Positions 3,037 through 20,130 of a stretch of DNA of 20,130 nt are shown in pieces (position 1 is the stretch's first letter; each line of letters opens with the position of its first letter). Source of the DNA: Ectocarpus siliculosus (Eukaryota; Sar; Phaeophyceae; Ectocarpales; Ectocarpaceae); assembly GCA_000310025.1 (NCBI GenBank), contig FN648471.1, positions 185,459 to 205,588 on the forward strand. Reading direction: 5' to 3'. The position numbers and the translations under genes are program-made. The notes beneath the pieces are model-generated. The model ran no database searches, had not been told where the DNA came from, and saw only the letters and a list, made by a program, of their open reading frames with translations.

Positions 3037-3058
3037 ATGCTGTAGTCGACTACAGCAT
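3037..3058. repeat. Perfect 22-bp palindrome
   Basis: ATGCTGTAGTC is followed directly by its exact reverse complement, giving 11-bp arms with no spacer. The flanking bases (C before, A after) do not extend the symmetry. It lies about 0.4 to 0.75 kb upstream of the first HSF coding signal. It could be a dimeric protein-binding site or chance; no function is shown. Confidence 0.9.
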
Positions 3059-11759: not shown

Positions 11760-13390
11760 CCTACCATGGTATCCCCCTTTCCACCTCCGCGGCGAGAGTC
11801 CGGATGGCACGAGGGACCCCGAACGTTCTCCCGTCGCCGTCGGGGGATTCGTCTATGGCGCCGAATGCTTGGAAGCCGTCCTTCAGGCCTTTCAGACAAT
11901 TCTGCTCTGGCACCCCTTGCTGCCTAAATCCTCCCCTCCCCACGAGTTTCTCACACATCATTCGCGTCGGGAGTCGCCCGTCCGGTTGTCTGGCCAAGGC
12001 TCCTGCAATCAGCCGTTTCCATTGTCGGCGACCATTATAAGGGTTGCACATAGGAGCGCTGCCGATATTTCCCCGCGTGCGGCGGTACCCGACAGCCCGT
12101 ACAAGGACCCGGGGGGGTATCTCCTCAGAAGTTGGTAGTGGTCACGGCACGGGGCCCACGTCACGCATCCGTACCAGTAGGATCTTCATCGCCCCCACGA
12201 CTTCGAGAAGCCAGACCTAAAATCCCCACGGTGCTGCATGCCTGTGGAAGAGCTCCGCCGGGGAGTACCTCCGGATGAACACCCACGCGGCTTTGCTCCG
12301 GTAGCTGATGACCCGTCCGAGCTCACCACCTTCTCCGACACGGCCACCCTGGTATCGGAACTCGGTGGTTGGGCGTATTCAAAAAACCTATCACTTGAAA
12401 TCGGCATCCTCTTCGTCGTGGAGAAACCGAGCTTTGAAAATCGGTCCCAGGGGGTGCGGTATCTATGCAACCTACGGTGACCCTAACGCCAAGCCCACAC
12501 GAAACGTACGTGCTAGGTTGGCGCTGGGTGGCTAAGTTCTAGGTTGATGTGCCGGTGGCGAAGTTCTTGGTTGAAGTGCCCACGGTGGGTACTTCGTGTG
12601 CTGTTCATGGGCTGCCCAGGGGCCCACCCACGGGCAGCTCAGCTCATGGGCAGCCCATGCCTATGGGTGCCCCATGGGTGGCTTAGCAGAACAGCCAGTA
12701 GTGTGGGAGACTGGGAGTGGCGCGCTGCTGCTTCTCCGGCGCCCGCATCAGGAGAGTACCTCTGTCTTCTTCTCCGACGCTGTCAGGCCAAAGGCTCCAA
12801 CGCCTTCGACGATGATGATGGCCATCATCATCACCAGCCCTTCGGATGATCTCGATACAAAGCCACCGTCGTCGGCACACAGTGTTCCCCAAACCGCCCT
12901 GTACTTGTCCCAGCGGTGTCGCTACCCTCGCTCTCGTCCCAGGCTATTTCTCGAGGTATGCGAGGTCCATGACGATGGTGTTGTCCTCGTCGAATCGCAC
13001 AGAGCGATCTTGATCACCGCCCCGCACAAAACGTTAGACAGTAGCGGAGACAAACACATCCTTGTTTGACCTCGAACCAGTCCACGAACGAGCTTCCGGC
13101 TACCCACGCGTAGTACATGCCATCGAGGAATTGGCGGATATGTACATAACTGTGACTATTTCCTCCGGGACCCTAGCTCGAGCCAGTGCTTGCTCTTGGT
13201 CGGCCGAGTCGAAGGTCTTCTTCTGGAAATCGACGAAGCCCATGTACTACGGCTTTAACAAGTGGATCGGCCCGACTTGTTGTAGATAAAGCACCTTGCT
13301 TGATGGTGGTGTCTTTCCAAACCTGTGGGACCTCCCCTCCGTTCCACACGTAGACGAGGATGGCACGAAAGCGCTTCATGAAAATAGACC
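11760..13390 (-). pseudogene. LINE (non-LTR retrotransposon) ORF2 remnant, reverse transcriptase
   Basis: Read on the minus strand from right to left, fragments in several frames follow the usual order of a LINE reverse transcriptase. WNGGEVPQVWKDTTIK lies near 13340. VDFQKKTFDSADQE and the partner segment LVRGQTRMCLSPLLSNV lie near 13230-13010. The catalytic CADD (for YADD) has its two Asp codons at 12868-12873, followed by GAFGLTASEKKTEV. TTEFRYQGGRVGEGGEL lies near 12360, YGCVTWAP near 12140, and the C-terminal block DGRLPTRMMCEKLVG near 11970. The finger region between TTIK and VDFQ is mostly missing (about 60 residues expected). Stops and frameshifts are scattered throughout. No endonuclease domain was recognised to the right. 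The enzyme would copy its RNA at a nicked chromosomal site; this copy is dead. Confidence 0.85.
12383..12694. other. Insertion inside the LINE remnant, hairpin-rich
   Basis: In the second LINE copy (11000-11300) the segment before KYAQT follows PPPLVIEAA directly. In this copy about 310 bp separate the equivalent points. The extra DNA has an imperfect tandem (AGTTCTAGGTTGATGTG then AGTTCTTGGTTGAAGTG, 12535-12580). It also has a GC-rich part with arms such as GGGCAGCCCAT and ATGGGTGCCC (12648-12672). No target duplication or coding sequence is clear. It could be a small non-autonomous element or a filler insertion. Edges are approximate. Confidence 0.5.
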
Positions 13391-14036: not shown

Positions 14037-14166
14037 CCCGGTTTAGTGGTCCATAGTGTCACGAAACTTTATAACCGCTAGTCAGGGCATCGCCGCTAAA
14101 TCTCTTTAACGGTTATGAACAGCTAAACCGGGAGGCTCAATAGCGGTGATGAACCGCTAAACCGGG
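14037..14166. mobile_element. 130-bp MITE-like element with 14-bp inverted ends
   Basis: CCCGGTTTAGTGGT (14037-14050) and ACCGCTAAACCGGG (14153-14166) are inverted repeats matching at 13 of 14 positions. A further CTAAACCGGG lies at about 14123-14132, and several short AACCGCTA / TAGCGGT variants lie inside. There is no coding capacity. The pattern suits a miniature inverted-repeat element mobilised in trans, or a folded repeat. No clear target-site duplication was seen. Confidence 0.6.
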
Positions 14167-14369: not shown

Positions 14370-14969
14370 TTAGTCGAGGTGATGACACGTGCGAGAGGGT
14401 AGCCTGGGAGATGAGAGTCCTTCCACGAAGTGAAGGAGGTGTTGAGATATTGGAACACTGGCGGTTAGGTGGCCAACACAATCCAGAAGGATCACACGAG
14501 AGAGTGAGCTACTCAAAATCGTCAGTGTACGTTGGTCACGGCCCCTCTTGATTTCCATGCCCAAGACGAGCGTCACCTCGCCCATGTCTGTCATCTTGAA
14601 TGTTTGTTTTAACTTGTTCTTGATCATCAAGATGACGTTGGAGTTGTTTCCGGCTAAAAGAAGATCGTCGACGTAGAGCGTCAAGTAGACTTGAACATCG
14701 TCGTGGTCGTACAGGTAGACGCAAGTGTCAGACTTGAGCGGAACGAAACCCATCTCAACAAGGAAAGGGGGTTTGGGCCAGCCCGTAGAGTCTCTTCTGT
14801 AGCTGCATCACTAGATCACCTCCATCCTTGTCCTTGACCTCGAAGCCAAGTGGCTGTTCGACGAACACGTTCTCCAGGATATCTGCGTAAAGGAAGGCGG
14901 TGGACACGTCCATTTGATTCAACTCCAGGTTGAATTGCACCGCTATATATGCACGCTAACATCCGAATG
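14370..14969 (-). pseudogene. Copia reverse transcriptase, C-terminal part
   Basis: NLELNQMDVSTAFLYAD, ENVFVEQPLGFEV and QKRLYGLAQTP give the middle of the copia reverse transcriptase. About 20 expected residues are then missing and the frame changes to GFVPLKSDTCVYLYDHDD, followed by the catalytic YVDDLLLAG (around 14650-14675) and MTDMGEVTLVLGMEIKRG. Beyond about 14500 the family resemblance fades across frameshifts. RNase H is not found. Confidence 0.9.
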
Positions 14970-14977
14970 CTCTGTGT

Positions 14978-15807
14978 TGAATTTGAGTGTTCAGGACACC
15001 ACTGTAAAAATCACGAACTGTTCTGACTCTGCATTTCTATTGCGATTTCGTAGCGCAGTAATTTACCTTTTCCCGATTTCTACACTTCGCTCAAGTAGTA
15101 GAAATGCGGCATACTTCGGTATTACTGATAGTACTTGCACACACCACAAGACTGGTTGTCATAAGGAGCGTTCACAACCGTCTACCATGCATGTTTCAGA
15201 CCGCATAACGGTTCTTTGCGTGTTCTTCAAAGCATGCGGGGTTTTTTTGTACGAAGGCAAATTTCCCGAAAATTCTAGGAACGTAGGAACGGTTCCCGCA
15301 ATGGTTCCGGAGTAGTGCAGTACGGAGAATGGTACAGGTACCAGGAATGGTATTTAAGTTGCTGGAACGTTTCCGGACTAGTCTTTGAGTTCTTTTTGCA
15401 TCTACGTCCCGGAGATATTAGATGATGGCAGACAGAGCGCGCACCCGCCTACCGGGTTGACTCTGTTTCCTGCCCCAACAACCAAAATATTAAAATAAAT
15501 TATACCATATTTTTCTCAACCTGACTGACACATCAAGTCGGTCACGCAGACTAGCCGCTGCAGTGCTCACTCTGCACACTCGTCACACTACGGTGACATT
15601 GTTATTTTTCTTGTTCGTGTACGCATCTCTTGTTTTTCTGATCGCTGACTGTGGTGAACAGCAGCAGCAGCAGTACACCTGCTACCAGACAGACTAGTTT
15701 TCAGCGTGCGGAGACAACACAATTTTGCATTGTAGTGCTTGGGAATTGTCCACGACCGTCGCGTCTCGACAGACCCTTGACCTCTGATATCATATCAGAT
15801 TCGCACA
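14978..15807. mobile_element. 830-bp insertion flanked by an 8-bp direct repeat
   Basis: CTCTGTGT occurs at 14970-14977 and again at 15808-15815. With one copy plus the intervening 830 bp left out, the interrupted copia frame reads on across the join (QSIRML on one side, NLELNQMDV shortly after), so this is a true insertion with an 8-bp target duplication. The insert begins TG and ends CA, as LTRs do, but LTR duplications are usually 4-6 bp, and 8 bp is typical of hAT or P-type DNA transposons. No clear terminal inverted repeat and no coding sequence were seen. Inside are AT-rich parts (about 15480-15515) and repeated GGAAC/GGTTCC motifs (15280-15375). Confidence 0.8.
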
Positions 15808-15815
15808 CTCTGTGT

Positions 15816-16110
15816 AACCTGCACACTGGAGCGTAGGTGCTGCCGCAGTCCAGTCCAGGCACTTGGGTTCTAGCCTTGCGCCACTAGACGCCCCTTGAAG
15901 GAGCCGTGTGCCTTACGCTTAAACACCCATTTGGACTTAATCCGCTCCCTCCCTGGGGGAACTGCCGTGCGTGGGACGAGCTTGTAAACTTGACATTCCT
16001 TGAGACTCGCGATCAATCGTTCTGCAGCTGCGTTCCACTGCGCTCCGTCAGACATTGCCCTTGCCTCTTGGATCGTTCGTGGAACATCCGGTTGGGATGC
16101 CCCCACAGCG
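15816..16110 (-). pseudogene. Copia reverse transcriptase, N-terminal part
   Basis: ASQPDVPRTIQEARAMSDG, QWNAAAERLIASL and RIKSKWVFKRKAHGSFKG, then RLVAQG, match the start of the copia reverse transcriptase (RVT_2). After a stop and small frame changes, QVPGLDCG, TYAPVCRL and the start of a QSIR motif follow. The sequence is then cut by the insertion and resumes at 14969. Confidence 0.88.
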
Positions 16111-16657
16111 GACGCGTATTCCGTGAAACCAAAGGAGCCGTCCCTATGGGCGACGTCAGGGAACTCCCTTTCGCGGTAAATGTGTAGGAGATACGACGGA
16201 GCTCGCGGATGGTCTTTGCGTTAGGCATGCGCGAACTCGACCCCATGACAGCAGGTGCCGACGTGGACCCTCGTCCACCACGAGGACCACTTCCACTCGC
16301 CGAGCCGCGACCTCCACGCGGCGTGATGCCTCCCCGCGCAGATCCTCCTCGCGAAGATCCACCACGAGCACCTCGGCCACCACGAGACAAACCGCGCCCA
16401 CGCGCAGATCCACCCGCGGCACAGCGCTAGACGGAGCAGGACCAGAAGGCGATGAACCTAGCGGCGCAGGACCAGGTGACGAACCGGGAGGAGACTCACC
16501 GTCATCCGTTTCAGGGGGGCTTACTCCCCCAGGAGAGGCAGGGCTACCTCCCGCAGGTGTACCACCAGAAGTTTTAGGCGTGTCGTCGGTGGGAGGAGGT
16601 CCTGCAGGACTAACCCCAAGGTCACGGTTGGTTGTCTCACGGATTTGCTCGAGAAGC
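16111..16657 (-). pseudogene. Copia linker, Pro/Ser and RGG-rich
   Basis: Between integrase and reverse transcriptase, one frame is rich in Pro, Ser, Gly and Asp (SPAGPPPTDDTPKTSGG). After a frameshift near 16420 the next is an RGG-repeat region (RGGRGARGGSSRGGSARGG), leading into a block with RELRRISYTFTAKG. A frameshift near 16180 is needed to reach PDVAHRDGSFGFTEYAS. RGG repeats can bind RNA; in copia elements this linker is highly variable. Confidence 0.75.
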
Positions 16658-17560
16658 TCAATCACAGGTACCAGTATGTCCCAACGTCATGATCAGGAGA
16701 GAGCGAACCAACTGAGTGGTTGAAAGTGCAGTTTCGCACGTCTCTCTTACCATGTCGTCGTGGTTGTCGTACGTGAACTCCCCGTCGTCGAAGCCACCCT
16801 CATCCAACGCAGGCGCAACAAGATTGACAACATTTCGACTCACCCGTACACGTCGCGTCTCAGAGTTGTTTATCCCGTACGCCTTGCTGTCCATGCTCTA
16901 TCCGACAAGGCGTCCTTCCCAAGCACGGTGCTCCAGCTTCCTGCTGTGGGTCTCTTCGTGCACGAACGCCCTTGATCCTATCACCCGAAGGTGACCAAGG
17001 CAGGCATCCTTACCGTAGAGCGCCTTGTACGGCATCCCGTTTTGCAGGGCTGCATGAGGAACCCGGTTGCTCAGGTAGACTGCCGTCCGGATCAGCTCCC
17101 CCCGAAGGAAGTTCGGTAGAGTTGAGCCAGCGAGCAGACAGCGCACGATGTTCAAAATCGTCCGACCCGCACGCTCGTTCGCTCCGATCTGCTGAGGGGT
17201 GTTTGGAGAGGCGAACTCCAGCTTGATGCCGATGTCTTGACAGTACTGACGGAATTCCACACTCGTGAATTATGTGCCCTGATCCCCGCGGAGGCGATGA
17301 ATGCGTTCGCCGGTAGGACCCACTGTTCCTTTGTTGAACAATGCGAGGGAGTCTACAGAACAGGTCTTGTCCTTCATGAGTACTATCTCCGCTCACTTGG
17401 TCTGCTGGTCCACGAACTTGGTGGCGTACTTGAATCCGCCCAACGCTGTAGGTGTCAAGGGGCCAAGGGTGTCGACGGAAACGTCCTGGAAGGGGCGCAA
17501 GACGCCGTAGGTGGCCTGCTTTGGGTGAGGTTGTTGTGCGCTCTTTCCGAGCGGGCAGAC
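16658..17560 (-). pseudogene. Copia integrase core, three premature stops
   Basis: All pieces are in one frame: VSVDTLGPLTP (first Asp), LRGDQGT (second Asp), then SPNTPQQIGANERAGRT (Glu), with exactly 35 residues between the second Asp and the Glu. The TGA at 17393 stands where Trp is usual (TK-W-AEI), the TAA at 17270 lies inside the DQGT-x-F motif, and the TAG at 16898 lies in the G-x-SMDSKAYGI motif where Tyr is usual. The tail ends with NNSETRRVRVSRNV, as in other copia integrases. Each stop is a simple base change, pointing to slow decay. Confidence 0.9.
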
Positions 17561-17579
17561 ACTACAGTTCTTCACGTCT

Positions 17580-18124
17580 CCAGTATAGTCGACGCCGTTG
17601 ACCGGTTCTTTCCTTAGAACGTCCAAGCTCTTGCCGTTGATGTGCCCCATGCACCGGTGCCAGAGACCAGCGGACTCCACCTTCAAGGCGAGGGCATCAG
17701 GGTCGTCTCCGAGGACCGTCGGGCCCCCAGGTTCACCCCCTAGCTTCACCTCGATGGAGTAGGCGCATTTTCCGGTCGTGGCGTCCACCCCGAGGGTGTG
17801 CAACGGGAAAACCACGTCCCCCGACTCCAACCTGGGGTTGTCCTTCCGGAAGATGATGCGAAAGGAGACGTGCCAGTGGTTCCCATTGTCGTCGGTGACG
17901 GCGCCGAAGATAGTCCCCGTCGCAACGCCTTTGAGGACATGCTGGCCCGCGGCGACGATCGTGTGTTGGACCCGAACGTGCTCAACGTCGCGCATGTGAA
18001 CCCACAATCCTGGTGTAAGCGCAGGGTCGAGGTAGTTGTCTGTCGTTCCACTGTCCACAACCATCCGGATGGACGATCCGTCGGAGCGAAAAGGAGCAAG
18101 CGACAACTCTGCATGAGTCGCCAT
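17580..18124 (-). pseudogene. Copia protease and GAG-pre-integrase region
   Basis: The frame runs open from the Met codon at 18124 (MATHAELSLAPF) through VVDSGTTDNYLDP, with the aspartic protease motif DSG (codons within 18041-18055). It then continues to LWHRCMGHINGKSL and NCSVCPLGKS. The H-x4-H and C-x2-C pairs form the zinc-binding N-terminal domain of the integrase. The frame stays open back to 18274 but shows no gag features there. Protease cleaves the polyprotein in copia elements. Confidence 0.85.
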
Positions 18125-18135
18125 GAGCGCACCGA

Positions 18136-19214
18136 AGAAACATACTATAATACAATGCGATGCAAGCATCCGTTCGTGTGTCGTGCGGCTGCCACATGTG
18201 TCGACGACAGGTACACGCAGAGCTCTCGCGATGTTGTCGTTACCGCGCAGGAGGACCCCTCGGAGACCTTCCACATGGTGCTACGACGACAGCACTACTG
18301 TACATACATGTCGTAGGAGAGTGGAGTTGTGCTGTCACGGCATCTTCCACGCACTCTCCTACCGGTGCTTGCGTCGATTGGAGTCTTCTAGGCCGAAAGA
18401 CAAGAGTGGGTTGCGTTCCCAGATTGGTTGTGGAAGCAAACCTGCCTGCAACAACAGAGGACGCGGCGTTCTGTATTTATTACATGGTCTCCCTTCGGGA
18501 AGTGGGTGTCTACCCTCCCTCAGGTGACGCAAGACCACATGAGCATTGCCCGAAGAAGGACTGTGTGTCTAACAACGCTTGGATTTCCGCACAAAACATC
18601 GCGCACGTTGTAATTCTACATTGGAGCCAGCTCGAGCGGACAATATTTTGGCAGCGAAAAGTCAGACTTCCTGTTCTGGACGGCCGTGTGCACCGGTTCT
18701 AAATAGTGCGATGATGGACACTTGTGACCGCGAGGCCAAGTGATCGGAGTACAATAGGGCGATGATGGACTCTTGTGGCGCAAGGCACGAGAGTCCGGAG
18801 CACATGTATCCCGATGATAGCCACTTGGGCATTTAAGCACAAGCGTCTGGAGGGGGGTTTGCGAAGGATAGATATGACCGTCCTTCGCAGTAATCATGGA
18901 ATCAACGGCGCAATTGCCATTGGCCAACCAATCCCGCGCAATGATGAAATGGTTCCTCCGATGAGGGCTAGCGCCTAGCTCTCAGTGACCTTTGTGTCCG
19001 GAAACTGAGCACGAAATATTTGTGAACGAACCCGACCTGAACGCTATTGACCTGATATCACAACTGTGAGTCATGACCACGCCTGCATGAATGCATGCCT
19101 GACCGGATGATGGAGTATCGCTGCTTGCTCGCTTGTGTTGATGATGGAACTGTTGGAGTAATTGCGGTACAAGAACGACTCTATTCTACTGCATGGGTTT
19201 ATGCGGTATTGTGA
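18136..19214. other. No recognisable gene between the two copia elements
   Basis: No product is recognised. Plus-strand frames of up to 180 codons (18160-18702) lack any domain. No LTR-like or gag sequence was recognised, though both neighbouring copia elements should have had gag and an LTR on this side. Confidence 0.5.
18703..18835. repeat. 51-bp tandem repeat, about 2.5 copies
   Basis: GCGATGATGGAC recurs at 18708 and 18760, and a third partial copy starts CCGATGATAGCCACTTG near 18811. Spacing is 51-52 bp. The copies share GGACACTTGTG/GGACTCTTGTG and a CGGAGTAC/CGGAGCAC segment. Divergence is moderate. Confidence 0.7.
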
Positions 19215-20130
19215 AGGCGTTGCCAAGTCTGTAACCGTCAGGTGAAGACAGCTTGGGCGTCTGTGTGGATAATAATATCACTCGACCTGCCTAGTTCTCC
19301 GCTGGTTTTCCGTGCCGATACCGATGCCGGTGTCTGGCACCGGAGGATGGGACATTGCAATGCGCGCGCCCTGAAGCAGCTCTCGGATAAGGAAGGCACC
19401 GGCATCAAGTTCATCACCAACATTCAACCAGGTGACTGCGAAGTGTGCGATGTATCTAAAAGCAAGAAGGCGAGTCACCCCCCGGTTGGCCGCGCCCGTT
19501 CACTGACGCGAATGATGCTTATGCATCTCGACCTGTGGGGGAAACATGGTGTGCCATCGTATAGCGGATGTCAGCATATCGCAATGTTCACCGACGATAA
19601 ATCTCGCATGCGGTGGGGCATTCCCCTGAAGACAAAGGATGAAGTGACTGACGCGCTCGAAACACTGATTAAAGAAGTCGCCGATCCCGAGGGCATCTTC
19701 ATCGGGAAAATCCATTGCGATGGCGCAGCCGACTTCAAGGGTAGGTTCTTAGCAATGTGTAGGTCCTTCGGGATCGCTGTGGAGACAAGCCCCCCGTACG
19801 TCCCTCAAGGGAATGCTGTCGCCGAACGCGGTTTCGGGACCGTCATCGGTGCAGCACGTAGTCTCATGCTTGGAGCTCCGCACCTACCGCGTCAACTGTG
19901 GGCGGAAGCCGCGAAGGCCGCCATTTACATCAAGAACCGCACACCTACTGACGTCCTGGACGGCAAAGCACCACTTGAGGTTTGGGAGGACAAACCACTC
20001 GGCAGCTTGAAGCACATGCATGAGTGGGGGTCTGTAGCGTTTAAACACGTAGAAGCTCGCTCGCGAAACGATAAGTTTTCTGCCAGGGCCAATAAGTATT
20101 ACATGGTGGGATACAATACAACCAGCAAGA
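19215..20130 (+). CDS. Ty1/copia integrase, open to the window end (partial)
   Basis: One frame is open from 19215 (after a TGA at 19212-19214) to the last base, over 300 codons without a stop. Family resemblance starts at about 19320: WHRRMGHCNARALKQL (His codons 19338 and 19353) and CEVCD (Cys codons 19437 and 19446) give the zinc-binding H-x4-H / C-x2-C. The core follows: MHLDLWG (Asp at 19530), IHCDGAADFKG (Asp at 19719) and GNAVAERGFG (Glu at 19824). The spacing is 62 residues between the Asps and 34 between Asp and Glu when counted exclusively, the DD35E type. LPRQLWAEAAKAAIYIKNR and the C-terminal GYNTTSK follow. The sequence differs clearly from the minus-strand copia. No protease was found upstream, so it is 5'-truncated or rearranged near 19215-19320. 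No ATG start is implied; this is part of a polyprotein. Confidence 0.92.

Follow-up and report, generated by a model that had tools for sequence, protein, structure and literature searches.

Which kind of element lies inside the reverse transcriptase of a decayed copia retrotransposon in Ectocarpus siliculosus, where a piece of about 830 bases is flanked by an exact 8-bp repeat and ends in TG...CA, two features that appear to conflict? The window, that is, the whole stretch of DNA analysed here (20,130 nucleotides), contains the remains of the copia element on its minus strand, with the piece in question lodged between two parts of the reverse transcriptase domain (Table 1). The insertion itself is real, because copia reverse transcriptase pieces lie in the right order on both sides, the distance between them agrees with the profile only once about 838 nt are left out, and CTCTGTGT stands at both edges. 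The initial annotation, which had placed an insertion into a dead copia element at this point, was right in this respect. Specifically, positions 3-42 of the RVT_2 profile (PF07727) match 15873-15989 on the minus strand (E = 0.0051; 16.9 bits, below the Pfam cut-off of 31.6), whereas positions 70-127 match 14767-14946 (E = 1.8e-13) and positions 146-219 match 14517-14738 (E = 4.4e-11) on the same strand. Profile positions 42 and 70 are 926 nt apart; once the 830 bases and a single 8-bp repeat (838 nt) are subtracted, 88 nt remain, against 81 nt expected for 27 positions, and the point of interruption falls between STYAPVCR and SIRMLAC. The possibility that a copia element naturally contains the insert sequence was rejected, since the RVT_2 profile crosses this point without it. 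The claim that omission of the insert and one repeat returns the reverse transcriptase frame to its motif order stood in part: the motifs come back into order, but not into frame, the adjoining TYAPVCR and SIRML pieces being mutually out of frame across the empty site. A stop codon and a frame change are found within about 60 nt to the right of the insert, with another frame change within about 30 nt to its left, and the copia element may have been dead before the insertion. Further upstream in the element, the gag-pre-integrase piece (PF13976) was recognized with E = 1.1e-6 and 28.8 bits (cut-off, 28.4), and the integrase tail (PF25597) with E = 7.3e-8. The insert has a G+C content of 45.9%, compared with 60.2% for the right-hand and 48.9% for the left-hand flank of 1000 bases. 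A second copia element lies at 19302-20129 on the plus strand and runs to the end of the window with an uninterrupted frame of 276 residues, comprising gag-pre-integrase (E = 2.5e-7) and SH3-like tail (E = 7.3e-9) domains as well as an integrase core (rve), whose match at E = 2.3e-7 falls slightly short of the Pfam cut-off.

Table 1 Features of the insert and of the interrupted copia element (positions in the window)
Feature	Position	Strand	Basis and remarks
Decayed copia retrotransposon	~14370-18274	-	Pfam domains
Gag-pre-integrase and integrase-tail (SH3-like) pieces, upstream in copia	16898-18274	-	PF13976, PF25597
N-terminal part of reverse transcriptase	15816-15989	-	RVT_2; to KGRLVAQG, then stop and frame change, then STYAPVCR adjoining the insert
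Remaining reverse transcriptase	14370-14971	-	RVT_2; SIRMLAC from 14971, inside the repeat, then NQMDVSTAF...KRLYGLAQTP and YVDDLLLAG..., each after a frame change
Insert in the preferred parse, probable solo LTR	14975-15807		833 bp, TGTTGAATTTGA...TTCGCACA
Left duplication copy, CTCTG	14970-14974	+	Identity runs to 14977, CTCTGTGT
Right duplication copy, CTCTG	15808-15812	+	Identity runs to 15815
Near-perfect palindrome TCTGATATCATATCAGA	15783-15799		Self-comparison (94% over 17 nt, E = 0.008), lying 8 nt short of the insert's right edge
TATA-like TATTTAA, candidate U3 promoter element, provided that the LTR runs along +	15351-15357	+	Pattern scan; suggestive
AATAAA, candidate polyadenylation signal, likewise provided that the LTR runs along +	15494-15499	+	Pattern scan; suggestive

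The exact direct repeat described at first is indeed present at both edges of the insert, with the two 8-bp copies of CTCTGTGT located at 14970-14977 and 15808-15815. No other copy is found on the plus strand of the window, and its reverse complement is absent from the entire window. The 830 bases between the two copies start with TGAATTT and end with CGCACA. To gauge how often such a repeat arises by chance, we drew random breakpoint pairs from this window with a spacing of 638-1037 nt, excluding the first 1,500 bases and counting the few draws past the right end as misses: an exact repeat of at least 8 bp was encountered within ±8 nt in 0.125% of 200,000 pairs and within ±12 nt in 0.42% of 200,000 pairs. 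The natural reading is that the flanking CTCTGTGT pair is a duplication made at insertion.

A duplication length read off a single copy is an upper bound, and chance matches at the first bases of an element can turn 5 bp into an apparent 8 bp. In the present case, the left edge of the insert can slide within CTCTGTGT, and the TG...CA-type ends reported initially are obtained if 3, 5 or 8 bp are assigned to the left duplication; at random boundary pairs, such ends turned up in 0.5% of 20,000 draws. With the duplication taken as 8 bp, the insert measures 830 bp and reads TGAATT...CGCACA. With 5 bp, the duplication is CTCTG and the insert has 833 bp, TGTTGAATTTGA...TTCGCACA, with TGT...ACA ends, and the 3-bp parse gives CTC and TGTGTTGAATTTGA. 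The 5-bp parse requires the TGT that follows to match by chance, with a probability of 1/64, while the 8-bp parse requires no such match. We nevertheless prefer the former, because of the three lengths 5 bp alone falls in the usual range of LTR elements, 4-6 bp. The case for it is that ends and length together fit a well-known class at the cost of the 1/64 match, with a weak addition from the inverted similarity of the ends. With the left edge free to slide inside CTCTGTGT, the 8-bp duplication and the TG...CA ends are for the most part no longer at odds.

The inverted similarity was scored over the 30-nt termini. In the 5-bp parse these form an imperfect inverted pair (TGTTGAATTTGA versus TGTGCGAATCTGA) with a score of 6; of 3,000 boundary pairs placed at random, 0.6% scored at least as high, a value uncorrected for the comparison of nine parses. 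For the 3-bp parse the score is 7 (0.3%, equally uncorrected), slightly above that of the 5-bp parse, whereas the 8-bp parse scores 2 (18.9% of random boundary pairs), its ends having only TG/CA in common. Among random boundary pairs of the TGT...ACA type, 8.9% attain the score of the 5-bp parse, and in an unanchored comparison the two 60-nt ends, taken with the repeat, did not stand out from shuffled sequences, 174 of 500 of which did equally well. The inverted similarity of the ends thus lends weak support to the 5-bp parse and, taken alone, is without preference for 5 bp over 3 bp. The earlier statement that no terminal inverted repeat is visible holds for the 8-bp parse, but in the 5-bp (or 3-bp) parse there is this weak, imperfect inverted pair.

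Collectively, we infer from the sequence, with a probability of about 70%, that the insert is a solo LTR of another retrotransposon, and this estimate covers the LTR identity, the 5-bp length of the duplication and the recombination between LTRs. An LTR retrotransposon would have inserted into the copia element on the minus strand, its integrase making a 5-bp staggered cut that would have left CTCTG on both sides. Recombination between the two LTRs would subsequently have removed the internal part along with one LTR, leaving a single 833-bp LTR (TGT...ACA), a length within the usual size range of LTRs. The apparent 8 bp would then consist of the 5 bp and a chance match between the first three bases of the LTR (TGT) and the target bases past the cut (TGT). 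Nested solo LTRs are common and mainly of use for following genome turnover; a solo LTR is an ordinary kind of genome scar, and on present evidence the finding is an ordinary one. As in a solo LTR, the termini are TG...CA or TGT...ACA, and neither a Pfam domain at its cut-off nor an internal pair of direct repeats longer than 15 nt was detected. One difference from solo LTRs of the Ty1/copia or Ty3/gypsy type is that the exact flanking repeat here is 8 bp, not 4-6 bp, although 5 bp plus a 3-bp chance match is compatible with it. Duplications of LTR elements are described as usually 4-6 bp long and their ends as often tg...ca (PMC2253517). A close parallel in structure is FRetro129, reported to combine TGT...ACA with a 5-bp duplication and to occur as solo LTRs with 5-bp duplications (PMC3281118): the insert resembles these solo LTRs in being a single block without coding domain, in its TGT...ACA ends in the 5-bp parse and in an exact repeat of at least 5 bp, but those of FRetro129, at 79-87 bp, have only a fraction of its length. 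In the Ectocarpus genome, LTR elements account for about 6.25% (the sum of three table rows), compared with 0.05% for hAT elements (PMC12477816). The initial view that the insert fits no known class was not borne out, as the 5-bp parse gives TGT...ACA ends and the solo-LTR reading, itself mentioned at first, fits.

The foremost alternative, which we regard as unlikely, is a non-autonomous DNA transposon (hAT-like or P-like) mobilized by a transposase from elsewhere, with the full CTCTGTGT as its duplication. Such an element would explain the exact repeat of 8 bp without a chance match, and a length of 830 bp without coding capacity would suit it. P elements, too, have terminal inverted repeats, yet the ends of the 8-bp parse, with their score of 2, share nothing beyond TG/CA, and the TG...CA ends themselves would have to be a product of chance (~0.5%). 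The hAT MITEs Vege (884 bp) and Mar (610 bp), both with 8-bp duplications, are comparable to the insert in the exact 8-bp flanking repeat, the size of 600-900 bp and the lack of a coding domain (PMC3517528). According to that study, hAT terminal inverted repeats measure 5-27 bp, the one of Mar being CAG(G/A)GGTAGGC (PMC3517528), whereas the insert, parsed with 8 bp, lacks a terminal inverted repeat, carries TG...CA instead of a CAG...-type end, and resembles the Mar terminus at neither end. The hAT or P-type origin suggested at first is accordingly disfavoured, there being no terminal inverted repeats beside the 8-bp duplication.

The contents of the insert bear on a further alternative, namely, that it is a truncated or processed retroposon (LINE, SINE or reverse-transcribed host transcript) with a duplication that happens to be 8 bp long. 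Retroposon duplications vary in length, so this one would be admissible, and the TATA-like and AATAAA words within the insert (Table 1) could be accommodated as well. Both words are suggestive at best: the relaxed TATTTAA pattern occurs six times on the plus and three times on the minus strand of the window, including a second match in the insert at 15488, and the counts for AATAAA in the whole window are likewise six and three. Against a retroposon, there is no poly-A or poly-T tail in the first or last 30 bases of the insert, none of its nine stop-free stretches of at least 40 aa reaches a Pfam cut-off (the best match, from one stretch, has E = 0.098 and 13.3 bits against a cut-off of 31.1, and the other eight yield none), and the window contains neither a tRNA gene nor an Rfam family at gathering score. 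We consider this origin improbable, more so than a DNA transposon. A TRIM, in which an internal pair of short LTRs would be present, was also considered and rejected, as the insert contains no internal direct repeat longer than 15 nt. The folding of the right-end DNA is unremarkable (z = -1.28).

An undescribed non-autonomous family, as initially envisaged, would combine a true 8-bp duplication, TG...CA ends and no terminal inverted repeat, and its movement would depend on an integrase or transposase with which this kind of footprint has yet to be associated. If true over many copies, an 8-bp duplication with TG...CA ends would, to our knowledge, be new. We found nothing positive in favour of such a family and no second copy in the viral, phage and prokaryote collections, and we rate it as very improbable. 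Still less credible is an introner-like intron, i.e., a transposon carrying or recruiting splice sites and spliced from the copia transcript: some introners are reported to make duplications, the transcript being lengthened by 8 bp of duplicated sequence in the case of Aureococcus (PMC9860276), and GT and AG dinucleotides are seen by eye near the edges on the copia strand, but such splice words are expected by chance, the host frame is already broken near both insert edges, and no copy was detected in viral_contigs, genome_contigs or phages.

The search for further copies covered these three collections, which consist of viral, phage and prokaryote DNA, so that a failure to match there carries little weight for a eukaryote host. 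Comparison of 14970-15815 with phages by distant blastn gave no match at E = 0.01. Two open frames, of 111 residues in the left part of the insert and of 73 residues on the other strand, served as probes for similar DNA and are not considered genes. The former produced 5 pattern matches in viral_contigs and 71 in genome_contigs, and the latter 14 in viral_contigs, none of which was confirmed. The left-end 18-mer had no match in viral_contigs, whereas the right-end 17-mer had a single one (L001), which was taken as chance, the next piece being 13 bases long and its spacing a misfit. Within the window, blastn of the insert returned, besides itself, matches of at most 17 nt among the matches listed. 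Since a second copy, a full-length element and an internal region were all absent from viral_contigs, genome_contigs and phages, it is the ends that point to the solo LTR proposed here. For the copia pieces, no relative was confirmed in viral_contigs or genome_contigs, and at E = 0.001 nothing in the PDB matched the reverse transcriptase piece.

Several other repeats are present in the window. A short element-like block at 14037-14166, possibly a MITE, has an 18-nt inverted repeat at its ends (CCCGGTTTAGTGGTCCAT / ATGAACCGCTAAACCGGG, 89% complementary) and a further CTAAACCGGG inside at 14123; inspection by eye showed no clear flanking duplication. A tandem array at 1-1400 (73-bp unit, 19.3 copies) extends to the left edge of the window, and shorter arrays are found at 1958-2159 (66-bp unit, 3.0 copies) and 18702-18804 (51-bp unit, 2.0 copies). 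Finally, perfect 22-nt palindromes are located at 3037-3058 and 12811-12832.
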